Source: a virus | IMG/VR virus record: IMGVR_UViG_3300043436_002340 | Location: 1-32,397 of that record | Strand: one strand, 5' to 3' | DNA: 32,397 bases | In this document: in pieces, positions 1,632 through 11,387 of the stretch | Layout: the number at the start of each line of letters is the position of its first letter | Numbering within the stretch: the stretch's first letter is position 1 | Program-made: the position numbers and the translations under genes | The notes under the pieces: generated by a model | Databases searched by the model: none | The model's input: only the letters and a program-made list of their open reading frames with translations | Told to the model about the DNA's origin: nothing

Positions 1632-2943
1632 CGTAGAACTTGAACGAATGGTGTTAGGAGCCGTTTTACTCGATTTTAAGGCACTTTCTCGCGTCGAAGG
1701 TATATTGACCTCAGAAAAGTTTTTCGATGCCCGTAATGAGGCTGTAATGCAATCAATCCAAACGCTCAAAAATGAAAACGAGCCGATTGATATTTTGACC
1801 GTAACCCAAACGCTCAGAAAACGCCAAAAATTAACCGAGGCGGGCGGCGCTCAATACGTGGCCTCACTAACTAACCGCGTGGCTTCAACTGCTAACCTTG
1901 AAACGTGGGCGCTCCATTTAACTGAAATGTACTTAAAACGGGAGCTGAGCAAACGCGCCGCCCTTATGGCTGAGCTTTCACTAGCACCCGAAAACGACCC
2001 GTTTGAACTTTACAACCAATTCTCTAGCGAACTAACGGACCTCATTCGCCAAAACCTGAAGGGTGAGGTTAGCCACGTGAGTAATATAACCCCCGAAACT
2101 TCCCACAACATCGAAATGAGGGAAAGAACGGGAATAAGTGGAATACCGACAGGCATTAGAGTAATAGACGGGGTTTTAGGTGGCCACCAACCCGCCGACC
2201 TTATTTACATAGCGGCCCGCCCAGGAATGGGAAAAACGGCTTACGCTCTGAGCGTTATTCTAAACATAGCCCAAAAGGGTAAACCCGTCGCATTTTTTAG
2301 CCTCGAAATGAGCCGAGCCCAAATAGTCTACCGTTTGGCTTCAATGCTGAGCGAAATAAACGCTGAAATTTTAGCAAAACACCGATTAGACCGCGATACG
2401 AAAATTAAATACTACCAAACCGTGGACCAACTAAACGCCCTCCCCATCTATATAGACGATAACGCGGCCTTGAGCGTTCACGAACTTAAAACGCGCGTCC
2501 GTACACTACGCGAAAAATTCAAAATAGAGGCCGTGTTTATTGATTACGTCCAACTAATAGCGGCGGCAAAGAACAAAACGGCCAACCGCGAGCAAGAAGT
2601 AAGCGCGATTAGTCGGGGGCTAAAGTTAATCGCAAAGGAAAATAATATTCCTGTAATAGCACTCGCCCAGCTGAGCCGCTCACTAGAAACAAGGGGCGAC
2701 AAAAGGCCCATGTTATCCGACCTCAGGGACTCGGGAAGCCTTGAGCAAGACGCCGACGTGGTTTGCTTTCTTTACCGAGAGGATTATTATAACAAAGAAA
2801 CCCAAACTAACAACGCCGAGTTCATAATAGCCAAACACCGCAACGGTCGCACGGGTTACGTCCCCGTAAATTTCACCCCCGAAACAATGCACTACACCGA
2901 TATTCAAACCAAACCAATGAATAACGAATCATGGGAACTTTGA
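1582..2943 (+). CDS. dnaB: Replicative DNA helicase, DnaB family
   Basis: A 453-aa hexameric 5'-3' helicase that unwinds the phage replication fork. The N-terminal domain (residues ~15-150) begins with the typical DVELERMVLGAVLLD and contains FFDARNEAVMQSIQTL. The RecA-like domain has Walker A ARPGMGKT (212-219), VAFFSLEMS (236-244), Walker B VFIDYVQLI (318-326), ALAQLSR (360-366) and the LSDLRDSGSLEQDADVV motif (378-394). All key residues are present and the length is normal for the family. Its start lies 50 bp inside the upstream replication gene, so translation is probably coupled. No separate primase is seen in this genome, so priming may rely on the host. Confidence 0.97.
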   Translation: MNLNQTPKLTTFLPPSDVELERMVLGAVLLDFKALSRVEGILTSEKFFDARNEAVMQSIQTLKNENEPIDILTVTQTLRKRQKLTEAGGAQYVASLTNRVASTANLETWALHLTEMYLKRELSKRAALMAELSLAPENDPFELYNQFSSELTDLIRQNLKGEVSHVSNITPETSHNIEMRERTGISGIPTGIRVIDGVLGGHQPADLIYIAARPGMGKTAYALSVILNIAQKGKPVAFFSLEMSRAQIVYRLASMLSEINAEILAKHRLDRDTKIKYYQTVDQLNALPIYIDDNAALSVHELKTRVRTLREKFKIEAVFIDYVQLIAAAKNKTANREQEVSAISRGLKLIAKENNIPVIALAQLSRSLETRGDKRPMLSDLRDSGSLEQDADVVCFLYREDYYNKETQTNNAEFIIAKHRNGRTGYVPVNFTPETMHYTDIQTKPMNNESWEL

Positions 2944-3188
2944 AAAAACAAACAGCAGTAGAGTGGTTAGAAGAAGAATTGGCTAAAAAGCTAAAATTAA
3001 TAGTTTTAAATCAAGATTATCAATTGATGGAAACATTATTTGAACAAGCTAAAGTAATGGAGAAGGAGCAGATGGATATTGTAGCAGGTGATTGGTGGAA
3101 TGAAGGAGCATCCTATATGCACGATGTTAAAAGGAAATATGAATCATTCGAACAATACTATAACGAAACATATGGAGGTGACAAATGA
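2931..3188 (+). CDS. Small conserved-type phage protein of unknown function
   Basis: An 85-aa acidic, mostly helical protein (TAVEWLEEELAKKL, then EQAKVMEKEQMDIVAGDWWNEG). The pattern AVEWLEE...EQAKxMEKEQ is familiar from small proteins in many Bacteroidota phages, without known function. It overlaps the helicase stop by 13 bp. The DNA is distinctly more AT-rich than the helicase gene and marks the start of an AT-rich block that continues to about 4976, which suggests recent acquisition. Confidence 0.8.
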   Translation: MGTLKKQTAVEWLEEELAKKLKLIVLNQDYQLMETLFEQAKVMEKEQMDIVAGDWWNEGASYMHDVKRKYESFEQYYNETYGGDK

Positions 3189-3396: not shown

Positions 3397-4281
3397 ATGA
3401 AAAATTTTGATTTATTTGGAAACGAAATAATTAGTGACCCATTATTAAGGGAAAAATTTATGGAGCCACCATTTAGCGTCCTGGATACAAAAGGTGGCGA
3501 TTGGCAAAACCGTAAACGCCAATGGAAAAAGTTAGGTATTGAAAGTCATTTAGGTAGGGATGCTGAATGTATGCCCTCTCAATTTGGTAGCGTATTAGAC
3601 GAAAACGGCTTTGACCAATACGGAAGAAAGCCAATGACTGGAATTAGTGTGTTTGACCCCGCCCTTTGTGAATTAATTTATAATTGGTATTGTCCCACGG
3701 GTGGGAGTATTTTGGACCCATTTGCGGGCGGTTCAGTGCGTGGAATCGTTGCTAATTATTTGGGATACAATTACACAGGAATTGATATACGCCAGGAGCA
3801 AATTGATAGTAACCGCGAACAGGCTTTAAAATTATTACCTGTAAACAAACAGCCTCAATATTACGTAGGTGATAGTAACGAAATGATTGAAACACTTTTG
3901 CCTCAATACGATTTGCTATTTAGTTGCCCACCATATGCGGATTTAGAGGTTTACAGCGATAACCCCAAAGACTTGAGCGTTATGAATTACGAGGAATTTA
4001 TAAATATTTATAGCCAAATAATTAAAAAAAGCGTTAAAAAACTAAAAAAAAATGGATACGCGGTATTTGTGGTAGGTGATATTCGTGATAAAAAAGGCTA
4101 TTATCGTGATTTTATTAGCCATACTAAAAAAGCGTTTATTGAGGCGGGAGCGGGTTTGTATAATGAGGCGATTTTATTGCAACCATTAGGAACGGCAATG
4201 TTAAGGGCGGGCAAAATATTTGAGGCTGGAGGAAAATTGACGAAGGTTCACGAAAATGTTTTAATATTTAAAAAACAATAG
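3397..4281 (+). CDS. DNA methyltransferase (amino-methyltransferase type, SCPPY motif)
   Basis: A 294-aa S-adenosylmethionine-dependent DNA methyltransferase. The SAM-binding motif is DPFAGGS (107-113), followed by GYNYTGIDIRQEQI as the second strand with its acidic residue. The catalytic motif IV is SCPPY (176-180) in FSCPPYADLEVYSDNPKDLS, a variant of D/N/S-PP-Y used by N6-adenine and N4-cytosine enzymes. Target specificity cannot be read from sequence. The frame opens at a TTG at 3355 overlapping the previous stop, but the ATG at 3397 precedes the conserved FDLFGNE start and is preferred. The gene is AT-rich and lies 2 bp before a PLP-enzyme-like gene. No restriction endonuclease is adjacent, so this is a solitary phage methylase or part of a modification pathway. 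Confidence 0.88.
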   Translation: MKNFDLFGNEIISDPLLREKFMEPPFSVLDTKGGDWQNRKRQWKKLGIESHLGRDAECMPSQFGSVLDENGFDQYGRKPMTGISVFDPALCELIYNWYCPTGGSILDPFAGGSVRGIVANYLGYNYTGIDIRQEQIDSNREQALKLLPVNKQPQYYVGDSNEMIETLLPQYDLLFSCPPYADLEVYSDNPKDLSVMNYEEFINIYSQIIKKSVKKLKKNGYAVFVVGDIRDKKGYYRDFISHTKKAFIEAGAGLYNEAILLQPLGTAMLRAGKIFEAGGKLTKVHENVLIFKKQ

Positions 4282-4283
4282 AC

Positions 4284-4976
4284 ATGATGATTCTAGAAAA
4301 ACATATGGAGGTTCAGGTTTTACGCGATGATTTATTGCCTGGTGGAACCAAAAGCGTTTTAATGCCTTCCATAATAGGTTCAAATTCAGAATATGTTTAC
4401 GCCTCACCCGTTTACGGCGGTTTTCAAATTGCGTTGGCATCGTATTGTCAGCAAGTAAATAAAAAAGCGACAATTTTTTGCGCTAAAAGGAAAAAACGCC
4501 ACGCCAATACAATAAAATTGATTGAATTGGGAGCAAACGTTATTGAGGTGGAATATGGATATTTAAGTGTTATTGAAAAAAGAGCGCGTGAATACTGCGA
4601 AAAAACGGGAGCTGAAAAATTAGTTTTTGGGGCAAACACTGAACACAATAAAAATATATTGACGGAACGGGTTATTGAGGTTTTAATTCAATTAAAACGG
4701 GAACCCGAGGAAATTTGGTGCGCCATTGGCAGCGGCACTTTAGTAGATGCAATTTTAAAAGCAACTAAAACCGCAAAAATATACGGGGTTCAGGTTGGAA
4801 AAGATTATAAACAAGAGCACCCCCGTTTAACCGTTTTAAAATATCACAAAAGTTTTGAAATGGAAAGTAATTTTAAAAGCTCGTTTCCTTCAATGCCTAA
4901 TTACGACCTAAAAGCGTTTGAGTATTGTATAAAGTATAAAAAAACCGATAATGTTCTATTTTGGAATGTTCTATAA
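4284..4976 (+). CDS. PLP-dependent (fold type II) enzyme-like protein, compact
   Basis: A 230-aa protein resembling 1-aminocyclopropane-1-carboxylate deaminase / D-cysteine desulfhydrase, but about 100 residues shorter. LRDDLLPGGTKSVLMPSI (13-30) corresponds to the family's REDLL..GGNK segment, giving Lys23 as the candidate PLP Schiff-base lysine. The usual QSNHxRA segment is replaced by ASPVYGGFQIALASYC. GSGT (149-152) fits the glycine-rich phosphate-binding loop. The C-terminus ends NVLFWNVL after FPSMPNYDLKAFEY. It is only 2 bp after the SCPPY methyltransferase and has the same AT-rich composition, so the two probably arrived and act together. The substrate is unknown. Amino-acid metabolism or DNA-base hypermodification are both open. 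Confidence 0.7.
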   Translation: MMILEKHMEVQVLRDDLLPGGTKSVLMPSIIGSNSEYVYASPVYGGFQIALASYCQQVNKKATIFCAKRKKRHANTIKLIELGANVIEVEYGYLSVIEKRAREYCEKTGAEKLVFGANTEHNKNILTERVIEVLIQLKREPEEIWCAIGSGTLVDAILKATKTAKIYGVQVGKDYKQEHPRLTVLKYHKSFEMESNFKSSFPSMPNYDLKAFEYCIKYKKTDNVLFWNVL

Positions 4977-4998: not shown

Positions 4999-5535
4999 AT
5001 GAAGCGTTGCAGGGTATGTAAAGAAAAATTTACGCCGACTTACTCGAGGTTGCAAGCCACTTGCACAAAGCCCCAATGCCTAATTGAATGGGGGCGGGTA
5101 ACTGAGCGAAAAAAGGCAAAGCGGGAAATAAAACGGATGCGAGAGAATATAAAAAGTGTTAGCCAGTACCGCCGAGAGTTGCAAAAGGTATTTAACGAAT
5201 TCATTCGCTTGAGGGACTCAAAACAACCTTGCATCAGTTGCGGCCGAACTTTGCCAGCTAAATATGACGCTGGGCACTTTTACAGCGTGGGAAGCTACCC
5301 GAATTTGAGGTTTAACGAGGATAACGTCCACGGCCAATGTGTCGAATGTAATCAGCACAAACATGGGAATCTTTTAGAATACGCCCCGCGCCTTACCGAG
5401 CGAATCGGTTACGAGAGAGCCTCGAAATTAATGATTCTCAGAAACGAGCCTTTGCGACTGGGCCTTGAGGAAATTAAACAATTAACCACACACTATAAAA
5501 AACGCGTGAACGAATGGAAAAAAGAGAACCAATAA
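4999..5535 (+). CDS. ninG: NinG/Rap-like recombination nuclease
   Basis: A 178-aa protein of the lambda NinG (Rap) family, structure-specific endonucleases that act on Holliday junctions and D-loops during phage recombination. The N-terminus has a Cys-rich start (CRVC at 4-7, then C22 and C27). A basic coiled region (ERKKAKREIKRMREN) follows, then an HNH-like zinc module with C78/C81 (CISCGR), His93 in DAGHFYSVGS, and C114/C117 (CVECNQHKHG). These are the family's hallmark blocks. I start at the ATG at 4999; a TTG one codon upstream is also possible. The 3' end overlaps the next methyltransferase gene by 22 bp. It fits functionally with the annealing protein and exonuclease. Confidence 0.92.
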   Translation: MKRCRVCKEKFTPTYSRLQATCTKPQCLIEWGRVTERKKAKREIKRMRENIKSVSQYRRELQKVFNEFIRLRDSKQPCISCGRTLPAKYDAGHFYSVGSYPNLRFNEDNVHGQCVECNQHKHGNLLEYAPRLTERIGYERASKLMILRNEPLRLGLEEIKQLTTHYKKRVNEWKKENQ

Positions 5536-6197
5536 GCCAGGTCACAAACGAGGATTGTATGGAACTAATGGGCCGTTACCCCGACAAATATTTTGAGCTG
5601 GCGATAGTAGACCCGCCGTATGGAATTAAAGAGGATGGTCGTAAATCAGAAAGCCGAGCCGTAAGTAGTCCAAAATGGAAAAACCCAAAACCCAAATATA
5701 CTTTTAAAAATTGGGATAACGAAAGAATGAATAAAAGTTATTTTGACGAATTAAAAAGAGTTTCTAAAAATCAAATAATCTGGGGGGCTAATCACTTCAT
5801 TGAAAATTTAGAGAATGCCAACAGTTCCGCTTGGATAGTTTGGTATAAAAAGCGATTTGATGAAATAAACGATTTTAGCGACTGCGAACTAGCATATACA
5901 AATTTTAAAAAAGGAGTTAGGCTTTTTCATTTTCCGTGGATAGGATTTGGGGCAGTTAACGCAAAAGAAAACAGAATACACCCCACCCAAAAACCCGTTA
6001 AACTTTATGAATGGATTTTAAAGAATTACGCCAAAGAAGGCGATAAAATACTGGACACCCATTTAGGAAGCGGCTCGAGTAGAATTGCCGCCGACAAAAT
6101 GGGCTTCGATTTTTACGCGTGTGAACTCGACCGCGATTATTTCGAGGCTCAGGAAAAACGATTTAAAGAATACAAAAGCCAGCTAATTTTGTTTTAA
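5514..6197 (+). CDS. DNA methyltransferase (DPPY type, N6/N4 class)
   Basis: A 227-aa DNA amino-methyltransferase in permuted motif order. Catalytic DPPYG (33-37) comes first, a putative target-recognition region follows (40-150), then HPTQKPVKLYEWIL (156-169) and the SAM-binding motif DTHLGSGSS (181-189). This order and HPTQKP are typical of solitary phage and Type II methylases. The target sequence is not predictable. By reading, GATC and CCGG do not occur in the genome, so neither is an obvious self-protection target. It starts inside ninG (22-bp overlap) and is followed by an ATG overlapping its TAA. The middle section is more AT-rich than the ends. Confidence 0.92.
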   Translation: MEKREPISQVTNEDCMELMGRYPDKYFELAIVDPPYGIKEDGRKSESRAVSSPKWKNPKPKYTFKNWDNERMNKSYFDELKRVSKNQIIWGANHFIENLENANSSAWIVWYKKRFDEINDFSDCELAYTNFKKGVRLFHFPWIGFGAVNAKENRIHPTQKPVKLYEWILKNYAKEGDKILDTHLGSGSSRIAADKMGFDFYACELDRDYFEAQEKRFKEYKSQLILF

Positions 6198-7339: not shown

Positions 7340-7904
7340 CGCTAAAAAGTTTTTTATCCTTCAAGTGTGAGCCCCGAGAGCTCCCCACGTAATAAGCAAA
7401 AATAGAAGTCCCAATAGATAGCACGCTTCCAAAAGTCATATCTGCGAGCCGCTGATTTTCGATAGGAATAACGATAAAAATAAGGCTCAAAACGACGCCA
7501 ACCGTTAGCAGTAAACCAACGATAACCACGGCCCCAAATAGCCAGTCCCTTTTACCCGTCGCATTCAAAAAGGCGGCCTCACGTACTCTAGCAGAATCGC
7601 GGTCGCTTACCTCGGTTTTATAATACTCAAGCTCGGTTTGCATATCGAGCCGCGTCATTTCGAGCTCAAAGTTTAACCGTAACTTTTCGAACTCTAAAGC
7701 AAGCGCCCCGTGTTCGTCCGATTTGTGACTTTGCCCATTTAGGAAAGCCCCCACGGTTTCTAACGCCTGAATGCCTGTAATATCGCCCGCAATTTCGAGA
7801 ATATCGCCCGCGACGGGTTTCACTTTATCGCGTACAAATACGCCGAATTTCGAGCCTTTAATTCGCTCGCCTATGGGTTTTTTATCTTTCTTCTTTTCGC
7901 TCAT
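7326..7904 (-). CDS. Putative holin (HP1/3TM-like), N-terminal cytoplasmic region
   Basis: A 192-aa protein. Residues 1-118 are soluble and charged, with a possible coiled stretch (FEKLRLNFELEMTRLDMQTELEYY) and DRDSARVREAA. Two hydrophobic segments follow, at ~120-147 (DWLFGAVVIVGLLLTVGVVLSLIFIVI) and ~155-174. The C-terminus FAYYVGSSRGSHLKDKKLF matches the GSSxGSxxK signature I associate with the HP1-like holin group. It lies directly upstream of the endolysin. Because the neighbouring 108-aa gene also looks like a holin, one may be a holin and the other an antiholin or lysis regulator. Confidence 0.7.
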   Translation of the reverse strand: MSEKKKDKKPIGERIKGSKFGVFVRDKVKPVAGDILEIAGDITGIQALETVGAFLNGQSHKSDEHGALALEFEKLRLNFELEMTRLDMQTELEYYKTEVSDRDSARVREAAFLNATGKRDWLFGAVVIVGLLLTVGVVLSLIFIVIPIENQRLADMTFGSVLSIGTSIFAYYVGSSRGSHLKDKKLFSDAKP

Positions 7905-8227
7905 TTTTTAGGCATGAAAAACGAAAGAACACCCGTTAGAATTCTTTTGTAGTTAGCCATTACGTAAATAAAAATCTTTTCGCCCATGAGTGTAGAAACA
8001 GGAACCGCCCAGCTCGATTCAGACTCGAGGCCGTTATTAGCACAATAAACGGAGGTTAAATAACCCGAGAAAATAGATAGGCCAACTACGGCTATCCATT
8101 GAATGACGGTAATTGTTCTTTTCATATATAGCTCATAAGATATTTTCCCCATTACCCCAATTAGTACCCCGAAAACCCAGTTATTCAGGTCACTAAAAAA
8201 CTCCGCCAACCCGTTAAAAAAACTCAT
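7901..8227 (-). CDS. Putative small holin (LydA-like)
   Basis: A 108-aa membrane protein with three hydrophobic segments at about 15-33, 39-63 and 76-95 and a positively charged C-terminus (FFMPKK). The motif LNNWVFGVLIGVMGKISYEL resembles the LydA/holin superfamily III start. It overlaps the following gene by an ATGA junction and sits in the lysis cassette. It forms membrane lesions if the assignment is correct; an antiholin role cannot be excluded. Confidence 0.75.
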   Translation of the reverse strand: MSFFNGLAEFFSDLNNWVFGVLIGVMGKISYELYMKRTITVIQWIAVVGLSIFSGYLTSVYCANNGLESESSWAVPVSTLMGEKIFIYVMANYKRILTGVLSFFMPKK

Positions 8228-8310
8228 TTCTTTTTAGTCTTTAGTATTAGTTGCTTCTCGTATTTCTTAAGCGCGATTAACTGCGCTTTCTTTTTCTCGT
8301 TCCTTTTCAT
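8224..8310 (-). CDS. Possible 28-aa basic micropeptide
   Basis: A 28-aa Lys-rich frame, MKRNEKKKAQLIALKKYEKQ..., that begins one base after the connector stop (TAATATG) and overlaps the holin start by ATGA. The tight fit between two coupled genes is the only support. It may serve mainly for translational coupling into the lysis genes. There is no homology claim. Confidence 0.4.
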   Translation of the reverse strand: MKRNEKKKAQLIALKKYEKQLILKTKKK

Positions 8311-8311
8311 A

Positions 8312-8872
8312 TTACGGAATTTGATTAATACGCCTATCGCCATAGGTACGGCTCGAGGCCGTATTTCCCGAACTGAATAAATAATTTTGTGAGCCTTTCT
8401 TAATTGATATTGGGCAACGCTGAGGCCAAACGTTGTTACTGTATTCGGGGAATAAATTAGAGTTAGCACAAAGGTAGTCAACCATTAAAGAAGTATAGTG
8501 CTCGGCGTTTTGTTGCCACCTCGCGAGCTGGTCTTTAAATACCACGTCCGCCACGGGCGAGGTATCGTCGGAGGTTCTTTGGACCATAGTGCCGTTATCG
8601 ACTTTATAAGTCAAAGAGGGGGCCGCTTCAACCATTGTCCACCACATAACCACGCGGCGGGCGTAATCGTCAACTAGCGTTAAATAGTCACCCGAAAGGG
8701 TGTTATTTTCGATATCGCTTTTAATCTTTTCGTAAAGGTTCGTTCCTAAATAGGGAGCTAAATATTTATCCTGAGCCAAATAAATAGACGGATAAAGTAA
8801 GTTAGGGTCTACCGCCCCGTTAACCGTGGTATATTTCTTAATATATACGTCGTTAATTATTAAAACCTCCAT
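8312..8872 (-). CDS. Head-tail connector / adaptor-like protein (DUF6712-like)
   Basis: A 186-aa protein directly downstream of the portal. The N-terminus (INDVYIKKYTTVNGAVDPNLL, then SIYLAQDKYLAPYLGTNLYEKIKSDI) resembles DUF6712-type and gp6-like connector proteins, which form a ring under the portal. The rest is helical up to ~150 (VVMWWTMVEAAP, DQLARWQQNAEHYTSLMVDYLCAN). The position in the head module supports a head-completion role. The assignment is by pattern and context. Confidence 0.7.
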   Translation of the reverse strand: MEVLIINDVYIKKYTTVNGAVDPNLLYPSIYLAQDKYLAPYLGTNLYEKIKSDIENNTLSGDYLTLVDDYARRVVMWWTMVEAAPSLTYKVDNGTMVQRTSDDTSPVADVVFKDQLARWQQNAEHYTSLMVDYLCANSNLFPEYSNNVWPQRCPISIKKGSQNYLFSSGNTASSRTYGDRRINQIP

Positions 8873-8884
8873 AGCTTTTTAGTT

Positions 8885-11005
8885 TTAGCGTCTATAATTT
8901 TTCCCGTCCTTTCCATATACGGGGTTCGTTTCTAAAAATCCGTTATAATCTTGGTCTACGGGTAGCAAGCTAACACGTATATCGTTTCGAACTACATACC
9001 CCATTTTTTCCGCTTTCCTTACCGCGATTTGTTGGGCGTCGTTAGCGAGCGGGTTTATTCCTTTCGCGTTAATATAGACCTCCTTTTGCCAAAAATGGTG
9101 ACAATTTCCGCCGCCTTTGTAGTAAAATATATTGTAATAATCCGTCCCGTTTGGCCCCCATCCTGGGTTAACGCGCTTACCCTCCATTGCTTCTATATCT
9201 TCCTTCCTATACAGCTTATCCGCGCTCAGCATTTTAGCGCAAAATGGACGGTTGCTCGAGGCTTTGCCCTTGTATCGGTATCGCGTCATGAAGGTAACGC
9301 CCGCGTAATTGGTTTCGTCCTGTTTACTCGGTGCCATTGGTTTAGCCGAACCCGTCGAAACCGCTAATTCGTGAGCTTCGATTTTAACGAGCTCCTCATT
9401 CTCGGCGTCGTCGTTATCGTAATCGACCTCGTAACTATCAATTAAAATGTAACCCTCGGGGGCGTCGGTTCCTAACGAAATTAATTCGTCGGCTATTTCG
9501 CTCGCTAAATTTTCGCGCTCGATTCTTTCAACCATACGCGCCGCCCAATCTCGCCCAGCGTCGCCGCCCCACAATTCCCACGCGATACGCCCCGCGCTAG
9601 GGTAACCCTCTTCGCCTTGGTTCCAACCGCTCGCCTCTTTGTCTACGGCGTGACGGCTGAAATAACTATTCATTCGTTGTATAGTTTCAACTGAAAGATT
9701 ACGCCCGTTTGAAATATCGCGAGCCCTAGCCACTCCGACCTCGGTTCCGCCCCTGTTATATTCGGCCCTCCATTTTAACCCCAATTCGGCCGCCGATTTC
9801 ATCTCATTTGTTGGCTCGAATGAGTCGGCTAAATTCTCGCAGTTACAAAACTTTTTTTTTTCGTCCTCAGCCATAACGGGAGCGGCGGGAGCGGGAATTT
9901 CCGCCGTAGTCGCGGGGGCTTGTATTAGTGGCGAGTTTGGAATTACCGTAATAGTCAATCCTGGCATTTCAAAGCCCAAAACCTCCTCGAAACTTTTCGC
10001 GATTTTATTCTGAGCGGGTTGGATTACCTGATTTGTAAAAATCTCAAGTCCCACCGCCATTTCGTCCTTATTAGAACCAAAACCGCCGCCCGTGTCGCGT
10101 ATTCCAAAAATCAAAGGAGTAACCACGCGGTGAGCAACCATGATAAGTGAGGTCGATTCTTTCGAAAGAAATTCGTATTGTTTGTCCGCGTCGCTGAGCG
10201 GAAAAGTAGTAATCTCAGGGCGCGGCGTGTCGCGCTCGTTAAACGTCATTATAAACTTTCCCGCATTTCTAGCGCCTGTTAATTGGCGTTCCCAATCTCT
10301 TTTAATTTGTTGCTGTTCGTCGGGAGCGGGCGCACCTTGGAAAAGGCTAACAATCATTGAAGGGCTGAGCCCGTTCATGATATTATTGACGTGGTAAATA
10401 CTAATTTCCTTCGCGAGCTCAATAGAATTTATTGCGCTATAATAGTCAGGGCGTGGGTAGAAATTAGAACCCGCGTAATTAAAGCAATAATAAACCTGTC
10501 GAGGCTCCTCGGCCTTGCTCATTACGTTATAAATCGGTATGAACTCGGGTTTATTCCTTTTCTTTCGCGTATTGGCCCAATCGTTCGAATGATAAACGCC
10601 GCAAATTTCCTCCTCCTCACCCGTAACAGCCAATCGGCACTCTTCAAAAGGCAAATGCCTCATTTTGGCCACGTTTTCGCGGTCTACCGTATAAATAATT
10701 TCAATGTAAAACCCGCCGTATAATTTCAAGTCGTTAGAACACCCATAAAAAACGTCGTAGGCTTTCAGTTCCTCGAGCCTTTTATTATAAACTCCCGCTT
10801 GTAATCCTTTGCCCGCTATCATTTCGCCAATAGAAACGCACAGCGAACCGTGAACGGCCCCCGTTTGGGCTAATTCCCTGAGGTATTGTGGAAATAAATT
10901 GTCTATTCCATAGCTCACCCAGCCCGAGCGGTCTAATTTCTGGGCCGAACTGCGAACCGTATAATCGGCTAGTTCTAATCTTTTGACTTGGTTAGGGGTT
11001 TCCAT
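8885..11005 (-). CDS. Portal protein fused to capsid-associated C-terminal domains
   Basis: A 706-aa protein. Residues 1-355 are a phage portal: WVSYGIDNLFPQYLRELAQ, HLPFEECRLAV, NGLSPSMIVSLFQGAP, FLSKESTSLIMVAHRVVTPLIFGI, and GFGSNKDEMAVGLEIFTNQVIQP. A Pro/Ala linker (~358-385) follows. A second domain (~396-497) has the GVARARDISNGRNLS and AVDKEA..GYPSAGRIAWELWGG patterns seen in many phage structural proteins. The last part (~565-645) has RYRYKGKASSNRPFC, then GWGPNG and GGGNCHHFW, resembling the Mu F-like C-terminal module that some phages attach to other head proteins. The portal forms the dodecameric DNA entry ring. The fusion is unusual, and the function of the two extra domains is inferred only. 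It overlaps the upstream gene by 14 bp. Confidence 0.85.
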   Translation of the reverse strand: METPNQVKRLELADYTVRSSAQKLDRSGWVSYGIDNLFPQYLRELAQTGAVHGSLCVSIGEMIAGKGLQAGVYNKRLEELKAYDVFYGCSNDLKLYGGFYIEIIYTVDRENVAKMRHLPFEECRLAVTGEEEEICGVYHSNDWANTRKKRNKPEFIPIYNVMSKAEEPRQVYYCFNYAGSNFYPRPDYYSAINSIELAKEISIYHVNNIMNGLSPSMIVSLFQGAPAPDEQQQIKRDWERQLTGARNAGKFIMTFNERDTPRPEITTFPLSDADKQYEFLSKESTSLIMVAHRVVTPLIFGIRDTGGGFGSNKDEMAVGLEIFTNQVIQPAQNKIAKSFEEVLGFEMPGLTITVIPNSPLIQAPATTAEIPAPAAPVMAEDEKKKFCNCENLADSFEPTNEMKSAAELGLKWRAEYNRGGTEVGVARARDISNGRNLSVETIQRMNSYFSRHAVDKEASGWNQGEEGYPSAGRIAWELWGGDAGRDWAARMVERIERENLASEIADELISLGTDAPEGYILIDSYEVDYDNDDAENEELVKIEAHELAVSTGSAKPMAPSKQDETNYAGVTFMTRYRYKGKASSNRPFCAKMLSADKLYRKEDIEAMEGKRVNPGWGPNGTDYYNIFYYKGGGNCHHFWQKEVYINAKGINPLANDAQQIAVRKAEKMGYVVRNDIRVSLLPVDQDYNGFLETNPVYGKDGKNYRR

Positions 11006-11387
11006 TATATATAATATCGTCGGTTATGGTTATCGAAGGAACGTCGTAATACTGAGTCGAATTAACGAGCTCAATAGTACCTATTTTGCAAAGGCCCACA
11101 ACGGCCGCGTTATTCGGGTCCAAATTTACGGCTGAATTTTGCCCGTAAACGTAATAGCGATAGCGGCCCTGTAAAGTTAGGCCAACAGTTGTTACCGTTA
11201 ATTGAGTTATTCGTTGGTTTTCGAGCACAATAACGGGCACTTGTGAGATACTATCGCCCGCCGTCGAATTCTCTTCGTGGGTTATAATTAAAAGAAAATG
11301 CGTAAACGTTTGGGCGAAATATTGCCTCGTTTCGTTTAAAGTTAGTCGGAGTATTTGCCCCGCGTTATTTGTAGCTAAATAATTCAT
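10992..11387 (-). CDS. Structural-module hypothetical protein
   Basis: A 131-aa protein, mostly beta-strand in appearance (QILRLTLNETRQYFAQTFTHFLLIITHEEN, then QVPVIVLENQRITQLTVTTVGL, GRYRYYVYGQ). Similar short beta-rich proteins occur near tail tube genes in Bacteroidota phages, without assigned function. I start at the ATG at 11387. The frame is open a little upstream, but only from a TTG inside a terminator hairpin. The hairpin sits directly before the gene, so it is expressed by readthrough. Confidence 0.75.
   Translation of the reverse strand: MNYLATNNAGQILRLTLNETRQYFAQTFTHFLLIITHEENSTAGDSISQVPVIVLENQRITQLTVTTVGLTLQGRYRYYVYGQNSAVNLDPNNAAVVGLCKIGTIELVNSTQYYDVPSITITDDIIYNGNP

Follow-up and report, generated by a model that had tools for sequence, protein, structure and literature searches.

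A DNA transferase of the CPPY family and a compact fold-type-II PLP enzyme, encoded side by side in the viral stretch analyzed here (32,397 nt, hereafter the window), are dedicated partners that we tentatively read as a phage DNA-hypermodification module in which the PLP step acts on an amino-acid group already bound to DNA. Hypermodification of DNA in some form by this pair, whichever enzyme acts first, is the broader claim, and we consider it probable. A module of this kind is supported by the dedicated pairing, by nested fusions of the two proteins, by an alternative AdoMet decarboxylase partner and by a SAM-binding loop that differs with the partner. Homology of the PLP protein to a family found in a thymidine-hypermodification operon adds further support. 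Both the transferase and the PLP protein belong to already-known gene families. Our literature search found no description of their coupling, of the nested fusion, of the alternation with AdoMet decarboxylase or of the hypothesis presented here; a prior mention is possible.

Gene layout and predicted proteins

Portal and terminase genes are present in the window, a virus record of 32.4 kb. The cassette has the following features:

3397..4281, + strand: CPPY-family DNA (methyl/alkyl)transferase, 294 aa; stop codon TAG at 4279-4281
3463..3558, + strand: conserved pre-domain PPFSVLDTKGGDWQNRKRQWKKLGIESHLGR, with W, R and G columns invariant or nearly so in aligned relatives
3715..3744, + strand: SAM-binding motif I, DPFAGGSVRG, residues 107-116
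3922..3936, + strand: motif IV, SCPPY, residues 176-180
4284..4976, + strand: compact fold-type-II PLP enzyme (predicted), 230 aa; ATG at 4284
4350..4352, + strand: Lys23, the candidate Schiff-base lysine, in RDDLLPGGTK; retained by 82 of the 84 relatives in the alignment
4728..4739, + strand: GSGT phosphate loop (residues 149-152), in which all 84 relatives keep Ser150 and Gly151
4902..4970, + strand: C-terminal YDxK ... FWNV signature (Tyr207, Lys210, Trp227)

Two base pairs separate the transferase stop codon from the ATG of the PLP protein. This layout, an SCPPY methyltransferase followed closely by a 230-aa PLP-type protein, had been proposed in a sequence-only reading of the window and is confirmed by the open reading frames. 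The same reading described both genes as more AT-rich than the replication genes around them. The cassette does have a GC content of 0.364, against 0.469 for DnaB and 0.451 for NinG on its flanks; this is in the lowest 0.7% of equally long stretches of the window, whose median is 0.454. The bias is not confined to the pair, however: because an ORF at 2931-3188 (GC 0.329) and a second methyltransferase gene at 5514-6197 (0.377) are equally AT-rich, the AT-rich region extends beyond the cassette, with NinG interrupting it. The second DNA methyltransferase, located after NinG, has a DPPY motif, carries motif IV before motif I and matches phrog_67/phrog_23224.

The transferase matches Pfam N6_N4_Mtase (PF01555) with an E-value of 9e-12 (45.8 bits against a cut-off of 26.7). 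The match is split into two stretches because motif I precedes motif IV in this protein. It also matches phrog_12517 (2e-91) and phrog_498 (6e-70). The SCPPY motif is invariant in a set of 11 sequences and conserved at 90% or more in a set of 40. It does not match the (N/D/S)PP(Y/F/W) catalytic motif, as the first position is Cys (CPPY) across the transferase family. An AlphaFold model (pLDDT 85.8) has a Rossmann methyltransferase fold closest to the tRNA guanine-N2 methyltransferases TrmN, Trm14 and Trm11 (Z 18.4-19.0, with TrmN at the top at 19.0). This modeled likeness is consistent with an exocyclic amine as the target and does not specify the base. The window protein lacks the fused N-terminal ParB domain present in most relatives. 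A defense-system reading was rejected, as PADLOC assigned mostly generic type II methyltransferase models to the transferase and nothing to the PLP protein.

The PLP protein matches Pfam PALP (E 8e-10; 38.9 bits against a gathering cut-off of 35) and phrog_7093, labelled 'threonine dehydratase' (E 8e-34). Searches of PDB sequences with the protein or its profile gave no convincing match, so it is placed by structure comparison only. The AlphaFold model, built with 30 relatives (pLDDT 91.8), matches many fold-type-II PLP enzymes at Z 20-22. The top match is the ACC-deaminase homologue 1j0a (Z 22.3, 230/230 residues aligned, 2.5 A), D-cysteine desulfhydrase scores 22.0 and CysK/CysM score about 20. 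The suggestion that the protein resembles a shortened ACC deaminase or D-cysteine desulfhydrase is thus upheld at the level of fold. The two best matches align over 228-230 residues, but the window protein is about 100 residues shorter, has 13-16% identity to them and differs at the QSN(H/Q)-type loop, which is replaced by GGFQIALA in the window and by GG(F/A)Q(I/T)AL across its family. None of the NCBIfam models for these enzymes (TIGR01274, TIGR01275, PRK03910) matches the protein; the only NCBIfam match is a weak one to threonine synthase, far below the cut-off.

Lys23, the GSGT loop and the changed QSNH segment are all as that reading described, and both fold and PLP residues are preserved in the structure model. 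Since Lys23 and GSGT are kept and the QSN(H/Q) loop is altered, the PLP pocket is likely present with changed substrate contacts, and the protein probably binds PLP. Lys210 and Trp227 are invariant among the 84 relatives, at an overall identity of about 40%. The two relatives with Arg in place of Lys23 (L083 and L085) are closely similar to each other and may be a lineage oddity or natural pseudoenzymes.

Pairing and nested fusion

We collected loci by searching with the PLP protein only, in phage records, IMG/VR and bacterial genomes. Bacterial relatives come mainly from Rhodobacterales and other Alphaproteobacteria and presumably reside in prophages. A transferase gene directly adjoins the PLP gene in 101 of the 106 loci, near-copies included (99 upstream, 2 downstream). 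The other five are one locus cut by a contig end, three N-terminally decayed copies of the PLP gene from Rhodobacter assemblies (L108, L109, L110) and L075, where a distance of 1.06 kb separates the PLP gene from that of a related transferase. This L075 transferase is fused to DNA polymerase A: the product (7732-11136) is a 1134-aa protein with an N-terminal DNA methyltransferase-like domain joined to the polymerase. Gene order is variable: besides the order of the window, we found PLP-transferase (L017) and ParB/PLP/transferase (L033, L202).

In four records (Erythrobacter phages R6L and ZS04, Pseudanabaena phage Pam4 and IMG/VR contig L200), the PLP domain is nested inside the transferase, between motif I/II and motif III/IV. 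In the resulting single chain of 810-850 aa, the PLP domain follows ParB, the pre-domain and motif I and precedes motif IV. Gene neighborhoods and nested single-chain fusions therefore bear out the expectation that the two genes would co-occur elsewhere, and they support well the view that the pair acts together, probably on DNA.

The association runs one way: the PLP protein accompanies the transferase and not vice versa. The transferase occurs without a PLP partner in many phages. L201 (3001-4761) encodes a single-chain ParB-transferase that is 72% identical to the ZS04 nested fusion and has no PLP domain, a natural empty site; the rest of its 66-kb record yielded no PLP gene either. In L133, a transferase like that of the window has no PLP gene beside it. 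Because both lack the partner, the transferase can evidently work without it.

The ParB-methyltransferase fusions of phrog_498 (phiFL3A gp36, Listeria B054 gp77) belong to the same CPPY family (47% identity) but have no PLP partner and are instead followed by a protein of 63-69 aa (phrog_10302). This small protein is conserved just after unpartnered transferases, mostly in phages of Firmicutes (L112 3968-4156, L113 3942-4139, L181, L183, L188, L191, L196, L197). Elsewhere, a PP-loop (SGGKD) protein of 384-394 aa follows the transferase with a 13-nt overlap (L149 1959-3140 and L151). It is a possible third partner, represented in L149 by a copy that matches no PHROG.

A sister clade paired with AdoMet decarboxylase

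In Croceibacter phage P2559S, the transferase gene overlaps an AdoMet decarboxylase gene (PF02675, E 2e-19) by 38 nt. We scanned IMG/VR with a transferase profile and ranked the loci by similarity to the P2559S enzyme. An AdoMet decarboxylase gene directly follows or overlaps the transferase gene in 53 of the 80 best loci, a proportion that describes this ranked set and not the whole family. No PLP gene was found in these 53, and none of the loci seen has both partners. The catalytic ESH...C is kept in 53 of 54 AdoMet decarboxylases, including that of P2559S. Such genes lie directly downstream of the CPPY transferase in dozens of viral contigs (L117 2512-4153; L120-L199), and these pairs are a lead for DNA aminopropylation in their own right.

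An E. coli speD mutant regains spermidine when given the P2559S decarboxylase, which was presented as a polyamine gene, with the methyltransferases unmentioned (PMC9992855). No spermidine synthase was found in P2559S or in six other phage records of the AdoMet decarboxylase-type transferase clade, five of which carry the decarboxylase. Because the synthase is absent from all seven records, the decarboxylase product appears to have no phage-encoded use in polyamine synthesis. The spermidine reading is weakened by this, though a host enzyme could use the product.

The SAM-binding loop differs between the two groups. All 54 transferases adjacent to an AdoMet decarboxylase have a loop of the GD[ST]VFG type, and Arg never occurs in it. 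PLP-paired transferases have GGSVRG, with Arg in 100 of 100 and Asp in none (one partial); these counts include near-copies and reduce to 39 and 22 representatives at 80% identity. In the decarboxylase-paired relatives, the second Gly of motif I has become Asp and the Arg has become Phe. Only L133 looks like an exception; it encodes two transferases, and the copy adjacent to the decarboxylase obeys the rule. Unpartnered transferases mostly share the GGSVRG loop.

In a transferase tree built leaving out the SAM-loop columns, the decarboxylase-paired enzymes group with a few unpartnered transferases in a single supported clade. Since the decarboxylase-paired enzymes form essentially one clade, we count the loop shift as one event. 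The tree has three changes for Asp and two for Arg, and an independent-pairs test was not significant. Repeated covariation of partner and loop was accordingly rejected: the tree does not support independent events, and the difference is one between clades. Judging from the motif, the loop Arg may hold the SAM carboxylate and be dispensable with decarboxylated SAM. A difference in the loop would be expected if one clade binds SAM without the carboxylate and the other with it.

Links to known DNA modification systems

The window PLP family is linked to PLP enzymes of phage thymidine hypermodification through Mycobacterium phage Vincenzo, whose PLP partner gp2 overlaps the ParB-transferase gp1. 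This partner matches both phrog_3650 (3e-106) and phrog_7093 (2e-11) and is closest by sequence to the ACC-deaminase / D-cysteine-desulfhydrase group. The nested ZS04 domain likewise matches phrog_7093 and phrog_3650 (2e-7), and the window protein matches phrog_7093 only. Profile alignment with hhalign relates the window family to the phrog_3650-type group with 96% probability (E 4e-9). The two share GY[LN]SVI[EQ]...FG, and the YDxK ... FWNV signature is the counterpart of YEGK ... FWIVG in phrog_3650.

Members of phrog_3650 include the PLP proteins of Glutamicibacter phage Montesquieu and of Ackermannviridae (e.g. Det7). In Montesquieu (L206 2943-6059), the PLP gene lies between genes for an alpha-glutamyl/putrescinyl-thymine pyrophosphorylase and kinase-like proteins, in an operon that is thymidine-hypermodification-like. 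Enzymes of phrog_3650 presumably edit an amino acid on DNA. PLP-dependent decarboxylases of phages are reported to trim amino acids on 5-hydroxymethyl-dU, and to say, as the sequence-only reading did, that a PLP enzyme beside a DNA methylase has no standard role is therefore too strong. The phrog_3650 enzymes are fold-type-II homologues of the window protein, bridged by Vincenzo, but they are longer (about 300-400 aa versus 230 aa). The window protein, for its part, is paired with a SAM-dependent transferase. A search of the window record, which may be partial, for the Montesquieu-type pyrophosphorylase (phrog_3271) found none and had no positive control. No thymidylate-synthase-type (dUMP) hydroxymethylase was found in this possibly partial genome either.

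The nearest proven analogue of the logic we propose for the pair is CmoA/CmoX of Synechococcus phage S-B43, in which a SAM derivative is made for a phage DNA transferase, yielding 5-carboxymethylcytosine, and an Arg decides donor choice (PMC12783734). There too, an enzyme that prepares a SAM derivative is teamed with a phage DNA transferase. The partners themselves, a Cx-SAM synthase and a C5-cytosine transferase, are unrelated to those described here, where an amino-type transferase is paired with a PLP enzyme or an AdoMet decarboxylase.

Proposed mechanism and alternatives

In the proposed module, the CPPY transferase would move a SAM-derived group to a DNA base, and the PLP enzyme, as a dedicated second step or as a built-in domain, would edit the amino-acid group. 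DNA is the probable substrate given the transferase family, the ParB fusion and the phage context. The PLP-paired transferase would move the 3-amino-3-carboxypropyl (acp) group of SAM, not a methyl group, and the PLP enzyme would act on the free amino acid of the DNA-bound acp, decarboxylation being the simplest reaction. The sister clade would reverse the order: AdoMet decarboxylase would first make decarboxylated SAM, and the transferase with the altered SAM loop would then move a 3-aminopropyl group to DNA. Transfer of acp followed by decarboxylation is attractive because both partners would remove the same carboxylate, one after and the other before transfer. Fold-type-II PLP enzymes are not typical decarboxylases, and we regard this version as a doubtful one. 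We infer the group moved, the target base and the reaction of the PLP enzyme. An amino-acid-derived group on DNA, as the sequence-only reading suggested, is made plausible by the AdoMet decarboxylase pairs and the thymidine-hypermodification homologue, with the chemistry still conjectural. Points against the module include the L201 and L133 transferases without a PLP partner, the homologues with Arg for Lys23, the altered QSNH loop and the GGSVRG loop of unpartnered transferases.

Alternatively, the PLP enzyme could act before transfer, reacting with the alpha-amino group of SAM to make another donor for the transferase. This would be an exact parallel to the AdoMet decarboxylase partner and to the CmoA/CmoX pair (PMC12783734), and it fits the mutual exclusion of partners in the loci seen. 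Yet PLP-paired and unpartnered transferases have the GGSVRG loop in common, so nothing points to an altered donor. In phages, homologous PLP enzymes also belong to operons in which the amino acid is presumably already on DNA. We consider action before transfer unlikely.

Rather less likely still is an ordinary N6-adenine/N4-cytosine methyltransferase with a non-catalytic PLP-fold accessory serving in target recognition, dimerization or the sensing of PLP or amino acids. The nested domain does lie near the usual site of target-recognition inserts in amino-methyltransferases, many relatives lack the PLP domain, the QSNH loop is changed, and L083 and L085 have lost Lys23 to Arg. Against this, between 82 and 84 of the 84 relatives conserve Lys23, the GSG loop, Lys210 and Trp227 at an overall identity of about 40%, and the full fold-type-II domain is retained, superposing on 1j0a over its whole length.

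The PLP enzyme might instead use beta-replacement to couple an amino acid to the base, with the transferase acting separately or later. Cysteine-synthase relatives of plants perform beta-replacement on nucleobases to make willardiine or lupinic acid, and the CysK/CysM fold match nearly equals that to ACC deaminase. We think this improbable, as the nearest fold belongs to the ACC-deaminase / D-cysteine-desulfhydrase group of elimination enzymes and the substitution of AdoMet decarboxylase for the PLP partner is left unexplained. A role in host metabolism had also been raised in the sequence-only reading. Action on host amino-acid pools as an auxiliary metabolic gene with a chance methyltransferase neighbor, which the ACC-deaminase-like annotation would favor, is very improbable and was dropped, being contradicted by the pairing in 101 of 106 loci and by the nested fusions.

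Phosphorothioation (dnd-like) was also dropped. A PAPS-reductase-like gene lies near the nested fusion in the Erythrobacter phages, and a PP-loop ATPase follows the transferase in two relatives; the candidate genes are not general, and neither adjoins the window pair.

Implications

The proposed DNA-hypermodification module offers a coherent account of two sets of phage genes whose present annotations point to unrelated metabolism: PLP proteins labelled 'threonine dehydratase/ACC deaminase-like' and AdoMet decarboxylases that are taken for polyamine genes. More speculatively, hundreds of phages may encode SAM-dependent enzymes that add the side chain of SAM itself to DNA, resulting in DNA aminopropylation. 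The side chain would be trimmed to an amine either before transfer, by AdoMet decarboxylase, or after it, by a PLP enzyme acting on DNA-bound acp. Decoration of DNA with an amino acid or amine from SAM was not found described for any virus in our literature search; here too, a prior mention is possible. If the proposal is true, SAM serves phages as a source of amino-acid or amine groups for DNA. The modification would likely shield phage DNA from restriction, and its enzymes would offer a compact means of placing reactive amines on DNA.
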